This document shows positions 6,425 through 16,797 of a stretch of 64,000 nt of DNA, in pieces. Origin of the DNA: Pseudoalteromonas sp. A25 (GTDB taxonomy: Bacteria > Pseudomonadota > Gammaproteobacteria > Enterobacterales > Alteromonadaceae); assembly GCF_009176705.1 (NCBI RefSeq), contig NZ_AP021846.1:3778001-3842000 (forward strand), read 5' to 3'. How positions within the stretch are numbered: position 1 is the first letter of the stretch; each line of letters starts with the position of its first letter. Below the pieces are notes generated by a model. It was not told the DNA's origin and did not search any database. It was given only the letters and a program-made list of their open reading frames with translations. The translations under genes were made by a program, and so were the position numbers.

Positions 6425-6509
6425 TTTCGATTTGAAAAATTGAGAGTTACCCGTTTTGATAAAGGTGTCGAATCTTTTAATCAAAACAACCTAAAAGGTG
6501 GTAACTCTC

Positions 6510-7550
6510 ATGTTGCATACTAACAACCCAATTATAAAACACAAAACTGGATTACTTAATCTTGCAGAAGAACTAGGTAACGTTTCAAAAGCCTGTAAAG
6601 TCATGGGCGTTTCAAGAGATACATTTTATCGATACCAAGAGCTAGTAGAGGACGGTGGCTTGGATGCGTTAATTGATAAAAGTCGTAGATCGCCAAACAT
6701 TAAAAACCGTGTAGATGAAGTTACTGAGAACGCAGTGGTTCAATACGCTATCGATTACCCAGCTCATGGCCAGCACAGAACTAGCAATGAGTTGCGTAAA
6801 CAAGGCGTCTTTGTTTCAGGCAGTGGCGTTCGCTCAATCTGGTTACGCCACGATTTAGAGAACTTCAAGAAACGCTTAAAAGCTCTAGAAGGTAAAGTTG
6901 CTGACGAAGGTATTATCCTCACCGATAGCCAAATCGCTGCGCTTGAGAAAAAGAAAAGCGATGACGAAGCTTGCGGTGAAATTGAAACAGCACATCCGGG
7001 TTACCTAGGCTCACAAGATACCTTCTATGTTGGCAATCTCAAGGGTGTTGGGCGTATCTACCAACAGACGTTTGTCGATACCTACAGCAAAGTAGCCTTC
7101 GCAAAGCTGTATACGACCAAAACACCAATTACTGCGGCTGACATACTCAATGACAAGGTTCTGCCTTACTTCGAGCAACACGAGTTGCCAATGTTACGCA
7201 TTTTGACTGACCGAGGCACCGAATATTGCGGTAAGGTAGAGCACCATGATTATCAGCTCTATCTGGCAATTAATGATATCGACCATACGAAAACTAAGGC
7301 AATGTCGCCTCAAACCAATGGTATCTGCGAGCGATTCCACAAGACGATACTTAACGAGTTCTATCAGGTTACGTTCCGTAAAAAGCTTTACGGTTCGCTA
7401 GAGGAACTTCAAAAAGATCTGGACGAATGGATGGCTTATTACAATAATGAGCGAACTCATCAGGGAAAAATGTGTTGTGGCAGAACGCCATTTGAAACAT
7501 TGCTTGATGGAAAATCGATTTGGGCTGAGAAGAATTTAGCTCAAATCTAA
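6510..7550 (+). CDS. IS481-family transposase
   Basis: This 346-residue DDE transposase has an N-terminal helix-turn-helix (LAEELGNVSKACKVMGVSRD, residues about 15-35), then a winged second DNA-binding part. The integrase-core catalytic region carries Asp in GSQDTFYVG, Asp in ILTDRGTEY and Glu in NGICERFHKT. Length and motifs fit the IS481 family. The ATG at 6510 is preferred over the upstream GTG at 6498 because AAAAGGTGG lies 8 bases before it, whereas the GTG lies inside that ribosome-binding site. The gene fills the element and is intact. It points opposite to the response-regulator operon. Confidence 0.92.
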   Translation: MLHTNNPIIKHKTGLLNLAEELGNVSKACKVMGVSRDTFYRYQELVEDGGLDALIDKSRRSPNIKNRVDEVTENAVVQYAIDYPAHGQHRTSNELRKQGVFVSGSGVRSIWLRHDLENFKKRLKALEGKVADEGIILTDSQIAALEKKKSDDEACGEIETAHPGYLGSQDTFYVGNLKGVGRIYQQTFVDTYSKVAFAKLYTTKTPITAADILNDKVLPYFEQHELPMLRILTDRGTEYCGKVEHHDYQLYLAINDIDHTKTKAMSPQTNGICERFHKTILNEFYQVTFRKKLYGSLEELQKDLDEWMAYYNNERTHQGKMCCGRTPFETLLDGKSIWAEKNLAQI

Positions 7551-10311: not shown

Positions 10312-10948
10312 TCTGTTTTTTTTTTAAAGACAATGGCATTGCAAACCCTTGGGTAAACGTACCATTGTACTCACCCTCTTTCATCGTTCCTTTAAAAGCA
10401 GCGTTAATCATCTCAGACTCAAAACTCAGCACCTGAGTGGTTATCGCAAATTGACTGAGGGGGATACCAAAACTTTGCTGCGCAGGGCTGTCTAATGTTG
10501 CATGAAACCCATCTTCTAGTGCAGCAACCTGCAACTCCAAAGGCAGCTTTTTCCCATTGATATCCAATGCGCCTGCGTAAGTACCCTCGAGCGCAAGCTG
10601 TGATTTAGCATCGGCCGTCAGTAAAGAGAAAGTCAAAGGCCTCGCTTTACCCTGCGTAAACGTCCCCACTAACTTGCCATCAACGAATTGTCCTTCATAA
10701 CTTGCATTGAGTTTATTATCTGAAAAACTTACGGCTTTATCAGACACCGAAGCTTCTGTCGGCACGTACTCAAACATTTTTTGATTAGGGCTATCAAGCG
10801 TAAGGGTCTGAGTGTCAGTATCTATATTGACCCCAACCACAAGCGATATCTGTTTTGATATCTCAAGTTTACCTCGCCATTGCTCTACCGCTGCATGGGA
10901 GGGTATTGCGCAAAGTAATATCAAAGTTCCTAAAATTTTAATCATCAT
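10298..10948 (-). CDS. Secreted two-repeat protein of unknown function
   Basis: This 216-residue precursor has a signal peptide ending near SHA at residue 19. The mature part consists of two homologous repeats of about 90 residues. Each begins with a W/Y-x-G-x-L strand, has a central LDSPnQ / LDSPaQ motif, and ends GTFTQG followed by PL-hydrophobic-L. Modules with this pattern are known to me as extra domains beside alpha/beta or beta-lactamase-like hydrolases, which fits the overlapping hydrolase gene downstream. It heads the operon; AAGGAGA lies six bases before the ATG at 10948. The protein may hold or present a substrate for the hydrolase, or act as a periplasmic input to the kinase. I do not recognise a named family. 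Confidence 0.75.
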   Translation of the reverse strand: MMIKILGTLILLCAIPSHAAVEQWRGKLEISKQISLVVGVNIDTDTQTLTLDSPNQKMFEYVPTEASVSDKAVSFSDNKLNASYEGQFVDGKLVGTFTQGKARPLTFSLLTADAKSQLALEGTYAGALDINGKKLPLELQVAALEDGFHATLDSPAQQSFGIPLSQFAITTQVLSFESEMINAAFKGTMKEGEYNGTFTQGFAMPLSLKKKQNERK

Positions 10949-11087
10949 GCTCTGTCTCCTTAAAAGTTACAAATACCGTATCAGATCTCTGCGTCATGTT
11001 GCTTAAATTATGACGAGTCAGGCCATTTTCTTTTTAAATTGTGCGAAAAATATGATGAGCAAAGATTTTAAATCAGCAAAACACAAA

Positions 11088-11147
11088 TGAAAATAAATCT
11101 CATTTAACCGTTGACACATCCAAAGATCTAACTGATAATCAATCTCA
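11088..11147 (+). promoter_or_regulatory. Sigma-70 promoter with two Fur-like boxes (sRNA copy 1)
   Basis: TTGACA (11111-11116) and GATAAT (11134-11139) are separated by exactly 17 bases, which is close to a consensus promoter. TGATAATCAATCTCA (11133-11147) overlaps the -10 and matches the 7-1-7 Fur consensus (TGATAAT-N-ATTATCA) at 12 of 14 positions. A second, weaker box TGAAAATAAATCTCA lies at 11088-11102, before the -35. The two boxes are 45 bp apart, as in copy 2. Binding of Fur is inferred. Confidence 0.75.
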
Positions 11148-11364
11148 ACAAAGCGAGATTGACGGCTCACTTTGTTGGATAATTCATATTGTTTCTCGAC
11201 CCTGAAACAAACGTGTGGCGCACGCAAACAGCCATAGGTTGAGCGTGTTTGCAGCAACGCCCCTTGATGCAAACGCTTTCAACCAACTCACTATTTTACT
11301 TGCTACATTGCTCATATCGGTGACGGTAGATATGACACTAAAAAGCCCCTTGTGGGCTTTTTTT
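11147..11364 (+). ncRNA. Candidate Fur-regulated RyhB-like small RNA, copy 1
   Basis: This is a transcript of about 218 nt, predicted from promoter to terminator. The core ACATTGCTCATAT (11305-11317) differs at one base from the E. coli RyhB core ACATTGCTCACAT, as I recall it. RyhB pairs with iron-protein mRNAs through this core and is repressed by Fur-Fe2+. Known Vibrio RyhB RNAs exceed 200 nt, so the length is not odd. The core is followed by a small hairpin (CATATC/GATATG) and an intrinsic terminator. An inner stem (about 11242-11278, GTTTGCA with TGCAAAC) precedes it. No convincing open frame or ribosome-binding site is present on this strand. The segment from about 11286 to the terminator is almost identical to copy 2, while the 5' part diverges. 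The call rests on promoter, core and terminator together. Confidence 0.75.
11340..11364 (+). terminator. Intrinsic terminator of sRNA copy 1
   Basis: The stem AAAAAGCCC / GGGCTTTTT has a five-base loop and is followed by a run of Ts. It is the same terminator as in copy 2. Confidence 0.9.
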
Positions 11365-11402
11365 ATGTCTGCTTTTTAAGTTTTCATCACACTAAAATTA
11401 AA

Positions 11403-11462
11403 TGATAATTAATCGCATTTAATTATTGACACACTGCTAGATCTAATTGATAATCAATCTCA
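11403..11462 (+). promoter_or_regulatory. Sigma-70 promoter with two Fur-like boxes (sRNA copy 2)
   Basis: TTGACA (11426-11431) and GATAAT (11449-11454) are 17 bases apart. TGATAATCAATCTCA (11448-11462) overlaps the -10 and TGATAATTAATCGCA (11403-11417) precedes the -35, again 45 bp apart. The layout is the same as in copy 1 although the surrounding bases differ, which points to selection on the sites. Confidence 0.75.
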
Positions 11463-11646
11463 ACAAAGCATGATAACATGAATTTTGTTACTCTAATTGT
11501 TGATACCCTTGTTCTACGTTTGGCAAACGTTAACTGCTAGGTTCAGGTAACCCTTTACACTGAACCACTCACTATTTTACTTGCTACATTGCTCATATCG
11601 GTGACGGTAGATATGAAACTTAAAAAGCCCCTTGTGGGCTTTTTTT
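11462..11646 (+). ncRNA. Candidate Fur-regulated RyhB-like small RNA, copy 2
   Basis: This is a transcript of about 185 nt in tandem with copy 1. The core ACATTGCTCATAT lies at 11586-11598, within a block of more than 50 nearly identical bases running into the same hairpin and terminator. The 5' half is largely unrelated to copy 1, so the two RNAs share the seed and 3' end but could differ in extra targets or stability. The arrangement recalls the tandem PrrF1/PrrF2 RNAs of Pseudomonas, which are Fur-controlled functional analogues of RyhB, but here the core resembles RyhB itself. The diguanylate cyclase gene starts 104 bases after the terminator and appears independent. Confidence 0.75.
11622..11646 (+). 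terminator. Intrinsic terminator of sRNA copy 2
   Basis: The stem AAAAAGCCC / GGGCTTTTT with T-run is identical to that of copy 1. Confidence 0.9.
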
Positions 11647-11750
11647 ATCTCTAAATTTTACCCTTTAGATGTGTAATCCGCTGTAATCGACTATAAAATC
11701 AACACCGTGTAAGATGCAGTCTACTTCTAGCGTGAATAATAAAAATACTC

Positions 11751-13166
11751 ATGGACCATGCTCGACGCCACTGCAATATCATCTTAACTCTGTTGTTATT
11801 GGCCGGGTTCACTTTTACTAGTTGGTTTAGTTATCACATGGCACACAACTCTTTGAGTGAAGGCATTGTTGATGACGCGCTTCCTCTTACTAGCCATTTA
11901 ATTAGCACTGATTTACAAAAACAACTGCAAGCACCAATTTATGTAGCACAAAGCATGGCACAAAATCACTTTGTCCACTTGTGGCTTAAAAGCAATCAAG
12001 GTGACACTGAGCAACTCTTTGCGTTTTTGAAGAAAACCAAAACCCTGTTTAAAAGCCAAACCAGCTTTTTAGTTGACCACCGAACAAACAAGTACTATCA
12101 CTTCGATGGCCGCACCAGCGTGCTCGATTTAAACTCGCCAGAAGGGTCTTGGTACAGCGAAGTATTAAACTATGCACAGCTGGATTACGTACTCAATGTT
12201 GACGTATCCCCTCAAGACAACTTTAGTCCCATCGTGTATGTGAACCATAAAATCATGGTCAATAATGAGCTACTTGGCGTAACAGGCGTTGGCATTCAAC
12301 TCGATGATTTACAACACCTTATCAATCATTACCAAAGTGAATATAAGCGTAAGGTGTATTTTGCTGATCATCGAGGCAGGCTGATTTTTTATAACCAAGA
12401 AAAAATGCCAAGCGACTCTTTAGCTTCTGAATTTGCTGAACACTACAGTGCCATCGTCAGCCAACCAAGCTATAAATTTTCTATCGAACAGCATGGCGTA
12501 CAACGCCTAGTCAATTCGCGTTACATTCCCGATTTAGGTTGGCATCTAATTGTTGAGCAAGCATTCACGCCCGAAACCAAACTGACGGACGCACTCATCG
12601 CAAACTTATTATTGGGTGTGGTGATCACCTTGTGCATTTTAGTCATCGCCCAGCTCACTTTTAACCAATATCAAAAGCGCTTAGAAACCATCGCATTAAC
12701 AGATAAACTGTGTAATGTATTAAATCGCCAAGCTTTTGAACCTCTATTACAGCGCCATATTTTGCGCGCTAAACCTGGCCGGGTACCACTCAGCTTACTG
12801 CTTTTAGATATTGATCACTTTAAACAGGTTAACGACCAGCATGGTCACTTAGTTGGCGACCAAGTGTTAAAACACTTTGCCCAGCTATGTATGAGCGTTG
12901 CTGATAGTAGCGATATTATCTGCCGCTGGGGTGGTGAAGAGTTTATGATTTTGATGCCTAATTCTTACATAGACCATGCCACACAATTTGGGGAGCGCTT
13001 AAGAGCGAAACTCGCTGCGTGTGATTGTATTGTACCTATCACAATCAGTATTGGCGTTGCGCAATATCAGTCACAAGAAAGTGAAGATGACTTTATTAAA
13101 CGTGCGGATGACGCTTTGTATCGAGCAAAACGGTTGGGCAGAAATAGAGTAGAGTTGGCTGCGTGA
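11751..13166 (+). CDS. Membrane diguanylate cyclase with periplasmic Cache-type sensor
   Basis: This 471-residue enzyme makes cyclic di-GMP from two GTP. A membrane helix at about residues 10-30 is followed by a periplasmic Cache-type sensory region (about 35-280), a second helix (about 283-305), and a cytoplasmic GGDEF domain (about 315-471). The active-site motif GGEEF is at residues 394-398, and a substrate-binding segment DIDHFKQVNDQHGH is present. The inhibitory site normally reads RxxD five residues before GGEEF; here it reads DSSD, so product feedback inhibition is probably absent. The gene follows the tandem sRNA units but has its own start region. It converges on the RbgA gene with only 19 bp between stops, and a 9-bp hairpin spans its stop codon. 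Confidence 0.92.
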   Translation: MDHARRHCNIILTLLLLAGFTFTSWFSYHMAHNSLSEGIVDDALPLTSHLISTDLQKQLQAPIYVAQSMAQNHFVHLWLKSNQGDTEQLFAFLKKTKTLFKSQTSFLVDHRTNKYYHFDGRTSVLDLNSPEGSWYSEVLNYAQLDYVLNVDVSPQDNFSPIVYVNHKIMVNNELLGVTGVGIQLDDLQHLINHYQSEYKRKVYFADHRGRLIFYNQEKMPSDSLASEFAEHYSAIVSQPSYKFSIEQHGVQRLVNSRYIPDLGWHLIVEQAFTPETKLTDALIANLLLGVVITLCILVIAQLTFNQYQKRLETIALTDKLCNVLNRQAFEPLLQRHILRAKPGRVPLSLLLLDIDHFKQVNDQHGHLVGDQVLKHFAQLCMSVADSSDIICRWGGEEFMILMPNSYIDHATQFGERLRAKLAACDCIVPITISIGVAQYQSQESEDDFIKRADDALYRAKRLGRNRVELAA

Positions 13167-16323: not shown

Positions 16324-16797
16324 ATGAACACGACAAACTCAATTGGTTTAGACAATCAAAAAAGCCAAGCATTAGTGACTGCATTAAACACCTTACTAAG
16401 TAGCTACCAAATTCAATACATGAATGCGCGTGGTTTTCATTGGAATATCAAAGGCCGTAACTTTTTTGAATTGCACCTTAAATTTGAAGAAATTTACAAC
16501 CTACTGTTAGAAAAAGTAGATGAAATAGCTGAACGTATTTTAACGATTGAAGGTAAGCCGCTACATGCGTTTTCTGACTACCTTGAAACCAGTAAAATTG
16601 ATGAAGCAAAAAACATCAGTGATGGCTCTGATGCCCTAAATAACCTGTTAAGTGGTTACAAAACCTTAATTGCAATGCAACGAGAGATTTTAGAGCAAGC
16701 GGGGGAAGCACAAGACGAAGGCACCGCTGCGTTGATGAGTGACTATATCAAAGAGCAAGAAAAGCTAGTTTGGATGCTTAAAGCGTATCTTAACTAA
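16324..16797 (+). CDS. dps: Dps-family DNA-binding ferritin-like protein
   Basis: This 157-residue miniferritin oxidises and stores iron and shields DNA under starvation or peroxide stress, acting as a dodecamer in the cytoplasm. Ferroxidase ligands are visible: His in FHWNIKGRNFFELH (two histidines twelve residues apart), then the Asp/Glu in VDEIAERILTIEG. The length is typical. AAGGAG lies eight bases before the ATG. Its 3' end overlaps the convergent gene at 16765 by 33 bases. Dps genes are usually under OxyR, RpoS or Fur control; no site was recognised here. Confidence 0.95.
   Translation: MNTTNSIGLDNQKSQALVTALNTLLSSYQIQYMNARGFHWNIKGRNFFELHLKFEEIYNLLLEKVDEIAERILTIEGKPLHAFSDYLETSKIDEAKNISDGSDALNNLLSGYKTLIAMQREILEQAGEAQDEGTAALMSDYIKEQEKLVWMLKAYLN

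Follow-up and report, generated by a model that had tools for sequence, protein, structure and literature searches.

A tandem pair of predicted Fur-controlled small RNAs with RyhB-like cores in Pseudoalteromonas

Positions 11088-11647 of a 64,000-nucleotide stretch of the Pseudoalteromonas sp. A25 genome, called the window here, consist of two tandem promoter–sRNA–terminator units with a core close to that of RyhB. The locus raises the question of whether these RNAs are RyhB under another guise, copies of an element that is not an sRNA, or a regulator family of their own. The reading favored here, and probably the correct one as judged by sequence features, is that of a genus-specific, multi-copy family of Fur-repressed iron-sparing sRNAs with petA, sdhC, acnB, and fumA as predicted targets.

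Anatomy and conservation of the array

The features of both units are collected in Table 1. The first-pass annotation had described TTGACA-17-GATAAT promoters, paired Fur-like 15-mers 45 bp apart, a common terminator, and a core one base off that of RyhB, and all of these are borne out: the box spacing is 45 bp in each unit (11088/11133 and 11403/11448), and the stem-loop is identical in both terminators. The promoter regions (11085-11159 vs 11400-11474) share 81% identity, and the 3' regions (11286-11364 vs 11567-11645) share 87% in a gap-free comparison—a figure that is lowered because the second terminator is preceded by one extra base. The array accounts for 4 of the 10 Fur-like sites in the window at ≥11/14 matches (shuffle mean 6.5) and for 2 of the 3 at ≥12/14 (shuffle mean 0.45). 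The folding z-scores are -4.38 for unit 1 and -2.14 for unit 2. The claim of a tandem, diverging sRNA pair with a RyhB-like core therefore stands for this Pseudoalteromonas genome, with Fur control as a prediction.

Table 1. Predicted features of the two sRNA units (positions in the window)
Feature	Position	Strand	Remarks
Unit 1 upstream Fur-like box	11088..11102	+	11/14 consensus matches
Unit 1 promoter TTGACA-17-GATAAT	11111..11139	+	11/12 matches
Unit 1 downstream Fur-like box, overlaps -10	11133..11147	+	12/14 matches
sRNA 1, predicted, about 218 nt	11147..11366	+	ends inferred from promoter/terminator positions
Unit 1 hairpin, loop CGACCC	11190..11209	+	predicted fold; motif in 112/154 predicted transcripts
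Unit 1 long variable stem, loop CGCCCC (11258-11263)	11237..11284	+	predicted fold; genus-wide pairing conserved
Unit 1 shared 3' module	11290..11335	+	core 11305-11317 RyhB-like; hairpin 11313-11334
Unit 1 3'-module hairpin loop GGTGACGGTA	11319-11328	+	
Unit 1 intrinsic terminator	11340..11366	+	
Unit 2 upstream Fur-like box	11403..11417	+	11/14 matches
Unit 2 promoter TTGACA-17-GATAAT	11426..11454	+	11/12 matches
Unit 2 downstream Fur-like box, overlaps -10	11448..11462	+	12/14 matches
sRNA 2, predicted, about 185 nt	11462..11647	+	neither CGACCC nor CGCCCC in 5' half
Unit 2 shared 3' module	11571..11616	+	core 11586-11598; hairpin 11594-11615
Unit 2 intrinsic terminator	11622..11647	+	

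Of 108 genus genomes, 107 contain the core pattern GCTACATTGCTCANAT, and the reversed pattern, used as a control, is absent from all of them. Most genomes carry two or three copies (37 and 38 genomes, respectively), 14 carry one, 17 carry four, one carries five, and one carries none; in the genome of strain A25, the two window copies are the only ones. The genome without the exact pattern (G096) has a petA leader (L437) that retains the site described below. R1, a covariance model built on the 3' module, matches 12/12 genus members drawn. Run with strict filters, under which weak relatives could escape, it matched none of the 234 genomes sampled from the rest of the family.

For comparison across the genus, 154 distinct units were collected by the exact 12-nt core motif, being those among the matches listed, from 56 of the 108 genus genomes and from Pseudoalteromonas sp. 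S16_S37. Promoters with at least 9/12 matches and a spacer of 17 nt precede 152 of them, 108 of these promoters being exactly TTGACA-17-GATAAT, and a terminator follows all 154 (152 by script, the remaining two by eye). The predicted transcripts of the promoter-bearing units are 152-331 nt long with a median of 217 nt. Both Fur-like boxes score at least 10/14 in 144 of the 152 units—the score of the downstream one being raised because it overlaps the -10 element—and are spaced by 45 in 118 units, by 44 in 13, and by 46 in 7. Putative Fur boxes at the promoter are what would be expected of a Fur-regulated iron-sparing sRNA.

The position of the array is stable. At least one of four proteins neighboring it in the window—a YlqF-like GTPase, a GGDEF protein, a 216-aa protein without a Pfam match, and a beta-lactamase-family protein—was detected by tblastn in 26 of 31 loci (L001-L031), and the two-copy array recurs in Pseudoalteromonas sp. 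S16_S37, next to a GGDEF protein with 90% identity to that of the window. The synteny that the first-pass annotation had suggested comparing is thus present in other members of the genus. This stability bears on the reading of the array as an attenuator, a repeat, or a mobile element with look-alike copies: multiple copies with near-identical 3' ends are what such an element would leave, but a kept position, a promoter and a terminator of its own for every unit, and one to five copies per genome, with none in one, make this reading very improbable.

Several side observations were made. The ORF at 6498-7550 (350 aa) has the look of an IS-type transposase by eye, with a helix-turn-helix start and an integrase-like core. 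About 5 kb from the array, a 157-aa ORF (16324-16797) overlaps a PF00210 (ferritin/Dps) match at C1:3794381-3794800 that runs through one TAA; in a further genome (G003), about 7.5 kb separate a PF00210 match at C1:401115 from the sRNA copy at C1:393581. A relative of the GGDEF protein is encoded in a record labeled Candidatus Anaplasma sp. TIGMIC (L106), possibly a misbinned contig, since such a protein would be unexpected for Anaplasma.

The shared 3' module and its complementarity to iron-gene leaders

The 3' module common to both window units spans 46 nt. Across the genus, TACTTGCTACATTGCTCATAT is present in 152 of 154 units and CACTTGC... in the other two, a constancy that is partly fixed by the search motif. 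The hairpin CATAT-C...G-ATATG that follows pairs in all 154 units, with one pair varying between C-G (146), U-A (6), and U-G (2); a count over 45 rows likewise yields this single covarying pair. The hairpin loop is GGTGACGGTA in 118 of the 154 units. Predicted folds leave the core segment UACUUGCUACAUUGCUC only half unpaired, with a median of 0.51 and values of at least 0.7 in 9/152, which counts against the favored reading.

Leaders of iron genes were searched for complements of this module from -70 to +15 in 25-30 genus genomes per family. In petA, the 10-nt ATGAGCAATG running from the start codon on complements the module in 24/24 leaders, and in sdhC, the 8-nt GCAAGTAA at -10 does so in 24/24 leaders. 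In acnB, whose start was located in 21 of 24 loci, the 7-nt CGTCACC is found in 21/21 leaders, at -21 in 19 and at -20 in two. All 24 fumA leaders carry at least 7 nt of complement to the hairpin loop, seven of them 10 nt (ACCGTCACCG). Complementarity of the module to the petA, sdhC, acnB, and fumA leaders, in every genome in which the leader was found, is the new finding of this analysis. These leaders are related by descent, and the distinct sequences among them number 21 for sdhC, 20 for acnB, 20 for fumA, and 13 for petA. Part of the petA match falls within codons 1-4, where protein conservation could account for its retention.

Two of these leaders feature additional structure. In fumA, 8/24 leaders have the loop complement at the start codon, as ACCGTCATG, and 17/24 have it farther upstream, as a motif between about -27 and -68; one leader (L355) has both. 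The upstream motif sits in a local hairpin in 16 of the 17—L355 being the one without—whose stem sequence varies, and in one leader (L364) it lies partly within the hairpin stem. In 18 of the 24 petA leaders, a second element, TAGCAAGT, at about -35 is complementary to ACTTGCTA, with UAGCAAGU inside a predicted hairpin; in the petA leader of strain A25, the element forms a predicted hairpin that exposes AGCAA in its loop.

Taken over the whole module, four of six iron families show a complement of at least 7 nt in at least 90% of their leaders, a result that none of 1000 dinucleotide shuffles (best three families, once) and none of 1000 mononucleotide shuffles (best three, twice) reaches, in a test that is free of segment choice and not of span choice; ftn was excluded from it because only five leaders were found. 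With 8-nt matches, two families pass and 1/1000 shuffles reaches two; with the span narrowed to -40..+15, three families pass instead of four and 1/1000 shuffles reaches three. In the test by element, for which E1-E4 and the leader span were fixed after the acnB and fumA sites were known, the core element's 8-nt sdhC result is equaled by 15/2000 shuffles, and the hairpin element's results for acnB and fumA by 15/2000 and 0/2000, respectively. Control leaders of gltA (23), rplM (12), and rpsI (19) contain no module complement, and sdhD has one in 4/21 leaders. Among control modules (reversed, complement, sense), a level of at least 90% is attained in gltA alone, with the unreversed complement; the next-highest results are 0.83 for rplM and 0.67 for Fe-sodB, with the reversed module.

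In the genome of strain A25, the predicted duplex with petA (-38.4 kcal/mol) is stronger than those of all 77 background genes and that with sdhC (-31.7 kcal/mol) stronger than all but one of the 77, whereas acnB and fumA have ordinary energies, equaled or exceeded by 12/77 and 41/77 background genes, respectively. Points against the favored reading are these two energies and the 9-mer ACCGTCACC, of which the whole genome shows no enrichment (38 sites vs 75 in the control) and for which no iron-gene start was recognized among 28 non-self sites of the 38. The core complement GAGCAATGTAGCAAG occurs in this genome at 185 sites with up to three mismatches vs 70 for the reversed control, which does not keep codon use; no iron-gene start was recognized by eye among 28 non-self sites of the 185, and one in-gene site looks like hemC.

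Two further candidates do not fit, which counts against the favored reading: sodB, which was rejected, and bfr. A module complement of at least 7 nt is present in 2 of the 12 Fe-sodB leaders, which are 12 of 30 sodB-type loci, the other 18 being of a second type; over the whole sodB-type set, element E3 matches by at least 7 nt in 8/30. For bfr, a module complement is present in 4/31 leaders. Of the targets that had been put forward for checking at first sight of the core, sdh therefore fits (sdhC, 24/24), and sodB does not.

Complementarity to mRNAs of iron enzymes, here petA, sdhC, acnB, and fumA, is the second feature to be expected of a Fur-regulated iron-sparing sRNA, and together with the putative Fur boxes it points to that functional class.

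Variable 5' halves and a proposed mode of action

Upstream of the module, the two window units differ, in line with the first-pass annotation, which had seen conservation only in the promoter layout and the 3' part. This second part of the claim is too narrow: the class of 5' half found in unit 1 is seen again in other units of the genus, and conservation thus extends beyond the promoter and the 3' part. CGACCC and CGCCCC occur together in 90 of the 154 predicted transcripts, including that of window unit 1; CGCCCC occurs alone in 23, CGACCC alone in 22, and neither in 19, window unit 2 among them. Both motifs are predicted to be unpaired, CGACCC with a median of 0.98 (at least 0.7 in 105/114 occurrences) and CGCCCC with a median of 0.99 (at least 0.7 in 107/113 occurrences). 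Four loci (L007, L016, L018, and L020) hold another class of unit with the same core and terminator type and a different 5' half containing CTCGACCC; these units are without CGCCCC, and none of the four window-neighbor proteins was detected next to them.

RNAalifold on A2, an alignment of 5' halves by sequence only, gave no 5' structure, and both C-rich blocks are invariant in it by construction because its rows were chosen by a regular expression for both loops. An arm-swap test was used instead. Over 93 arm pairs with 76 distinct left arms, the CGCCCC stem has a median of 19 spanning pairs in native arms vs 12 when arms are swapped between unlike units and a median energy of -21.1 vs -8.6 kcal/mol, and at least 10 pairs form in 90/93 native vs 58/93 swapped combinations. 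The sequence of the stem thus varies while its pairing is retained, which supports, at the level of predicted folds, a function of the 5' half as RNA.

The exposed loops and the retained stem give some weight to a reading in which the RNAs are real and Fur-controlled, the petA, sdhC, acnB, and fumA matches are incidental, and the main effect comes from the C-rich loops, which would act on Shine-Dalgarno-like sequences or on an RNA-binding protein; the unremarkable duplex energies of acnB and fumA would agree with it. However, the four-family result and its absence from 1000 shuffles speak against incidental matches, the C-rich loops have no complement of at least 7 nt in the sdhC, acnB, fumA, or Fe-sodB leaders, and 19 predicted transcripts, unit 2 of the window included, contain neither C-rich motif. 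This reading is considered unlikely. In bfr, complements of CGCCCC are scattered over 4/31 leaders.

According to the favored reading—iron-sparing action through the 3' module—the two units would be paralogous genes of trans-acting sRNAs, belonging to a family so far known only from Pseudoalteromonas. With iron plentiful, Fe-Fur would bind the two boxes at each promoter and silence it; with iron short, both RNAs would be transcribed. The module segments UUACUUGC and CAUUGCUCAU and the hairpin loop GGUGACGGU would then pair with the leaders or start regions of petA, sdhC, acnB, and fumA, as suggested by the conserved complementarity, possibly with the involvement of Hfq. Pairing would lower the translation or stability of the mRNAs for petA (cytochrome bc1), sdhC, acnB, and fumA, and iron would be spared in the TCA cycle and in respiration. 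Copies have different 5' halves, most of which, genus-wide, would expose C-rich hairpin loops.

A tentative extension, given a little short of an even chance, is that the family is modular: the 46-nt 3' module would offer at least three separate pairing sites, one of them a hairpin loop contacting its target loop to loop, in keeping with the hairpins predicted in the fumA and petA leaders, and would be combined with diverging 5' modules that show other, C-rich loops. With duplicated copies diverging in their 5' modules, new targets would accrue to the array, and the common shutdown of the TCA cycle and cytochrome bc1 would be preserved. The one to five diverging copies per genome would form a natural series for the study of how sRNA paralogues acquire pairing sites. 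The array is a candidate post-transcriptional iron-sparing system, missed by Rfam and with specified, testable targets, for a whole genus of common marine bacteria.

Relation to RyhB and other known sRNAs

The array sRNA is not a member of the Rfam RyhB family (RF00057), because the covariance model gives no match. At the gathering threshold, no Rfam family matches anywhere in the window. The RF00057 search proposed in the first-pass annotation yielded no match over 10800-12000 at E≤5, and 18 related loci searched at E≤1 likewise yielded none; the annotation had named the lack of a covariance-model score as a refuting outcome. The five Rfam hits that 10800-12000 does give at E≤5 are weak, belong to unrelated families—several on the terminator—and include neither RF00057 nor PrrF nor NrrF. 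Within the order, RF00057 matches 109 of 295 genomes at E≤1e-3, 79 of them above the cut-off; none of the 109 belongs to the window's family, and the A25 genome itself has no match. Conversely, no credible match to R1 came from 38 RyhB-type loci, the best hit (E 0.18) lying away from the RyhB core.

The likeness to RyhB spans about 13 nt: the core ACATTGCTCATAT is one base from the ACATTGCTCACAT of RF00057 loci (12/13 common), which there is followed by TGCTTCC, and the bases after the array core differ. Since RF00057 loci also carry visible Fur-like promoter boxes, and tandem copies are also seen in two further families of the order, the array could consist of true RyhB orthologues of which only the core survives, with replaced flanks and the same function; that the S. 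oneidensis RyhB was likewise missed by an early Rfam model (PMC2964681) adds to this. Set against the mutual failure of RF00057 and R1 and the differing post-core sequence, a RyhB origin is possible, if on balance doubtful. The array sRNA as favored here, a distinct RNA, probably works like RyhB, NrrF, or PrrF, a function that is predicted.

Tandem RyhB-type copies were observed in other families of the order (L276-L285), all below the Rfam cut-off; one family (f2) has up to three copies at intervals of about 364 nt, and another (f16) has two separated by about 230 nt. The first-pass annotation had known of no described tandem RyhB in this lineage; alongside these two families, PMC2964681 reports two tandem ryhB copies in S. 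amazonensis, a precedent that qualifies the statement. For the array RNA itself, a search of open-license literature without supplements, by title and start of abstract, found no published description, although a listing as an unnamed candidate is possible. PMC11277574, PMC12096840, PMC11882849, and PMC9927453 were also consulted; the word RyhB is absent from the main texts of both P. fuliginea sRNA papers.

RyhB shares with the array sRNA Fur control (predicted here), an intrinsic terminator, 12/13 core bases, and iron-enzyme targets including sdh (predicted here). The differences are the missing covariance-model match, the core flanks, and Fe-sodB, which does not fit here, whereas sodB is a classic RyhB target. 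Salmonella RyhB-1 and RyhB-2 are paralogues with a common core and different ends and resemble the array in all three respects; they occupy two loci, in contrast to up to four exact-core copies per array here. PrrF1 and PrrF2 of Pseudomonas form a tandem Fur-regulated iron-sparing pair with nearly identical copies. The array is likewise tandem, with Fur control and iron sparing predicted, but it has no Rfam match, and its copies share only the promoter layout and the 3' module. The tandem layout of PrrF1/PrrF2 is also mentioned in PMC2964681.

The same paper describes the Shewanella RyhB as an RNA of 168 nt with a Fur box and the RyhB core; it was found in S. oneidensis via synteny after the Rfam model of its day had missed it. 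A long RNA and a Fur box (both predicted here), a RyhB-like core, and tandem copies are common to both systems. In S. oneidensis, sodB goes down and sdhA and acnA are unaffected (PMC2964681), whereas the fit here, as judged by complementarity only, is with sdhC and acnB and not with Fe-sodB. If the favored reading is true, RyhB-type control would be carried in Pseudoalteromonas by a different RNA, with a target choice the reverse of that in S. oneidensis: the TCA cycle and bc1 instead of sodB. In its targets, the array sRNA comes close to NrrF of Neisseria, a Fur-controlled sRNA that acts on sdhCDAB and petABC (PMC5586341)—two of the four targets predicted here—and it differs from NrrF in having no Rfam match at gathering and in being arranged in multi-copy arrays.
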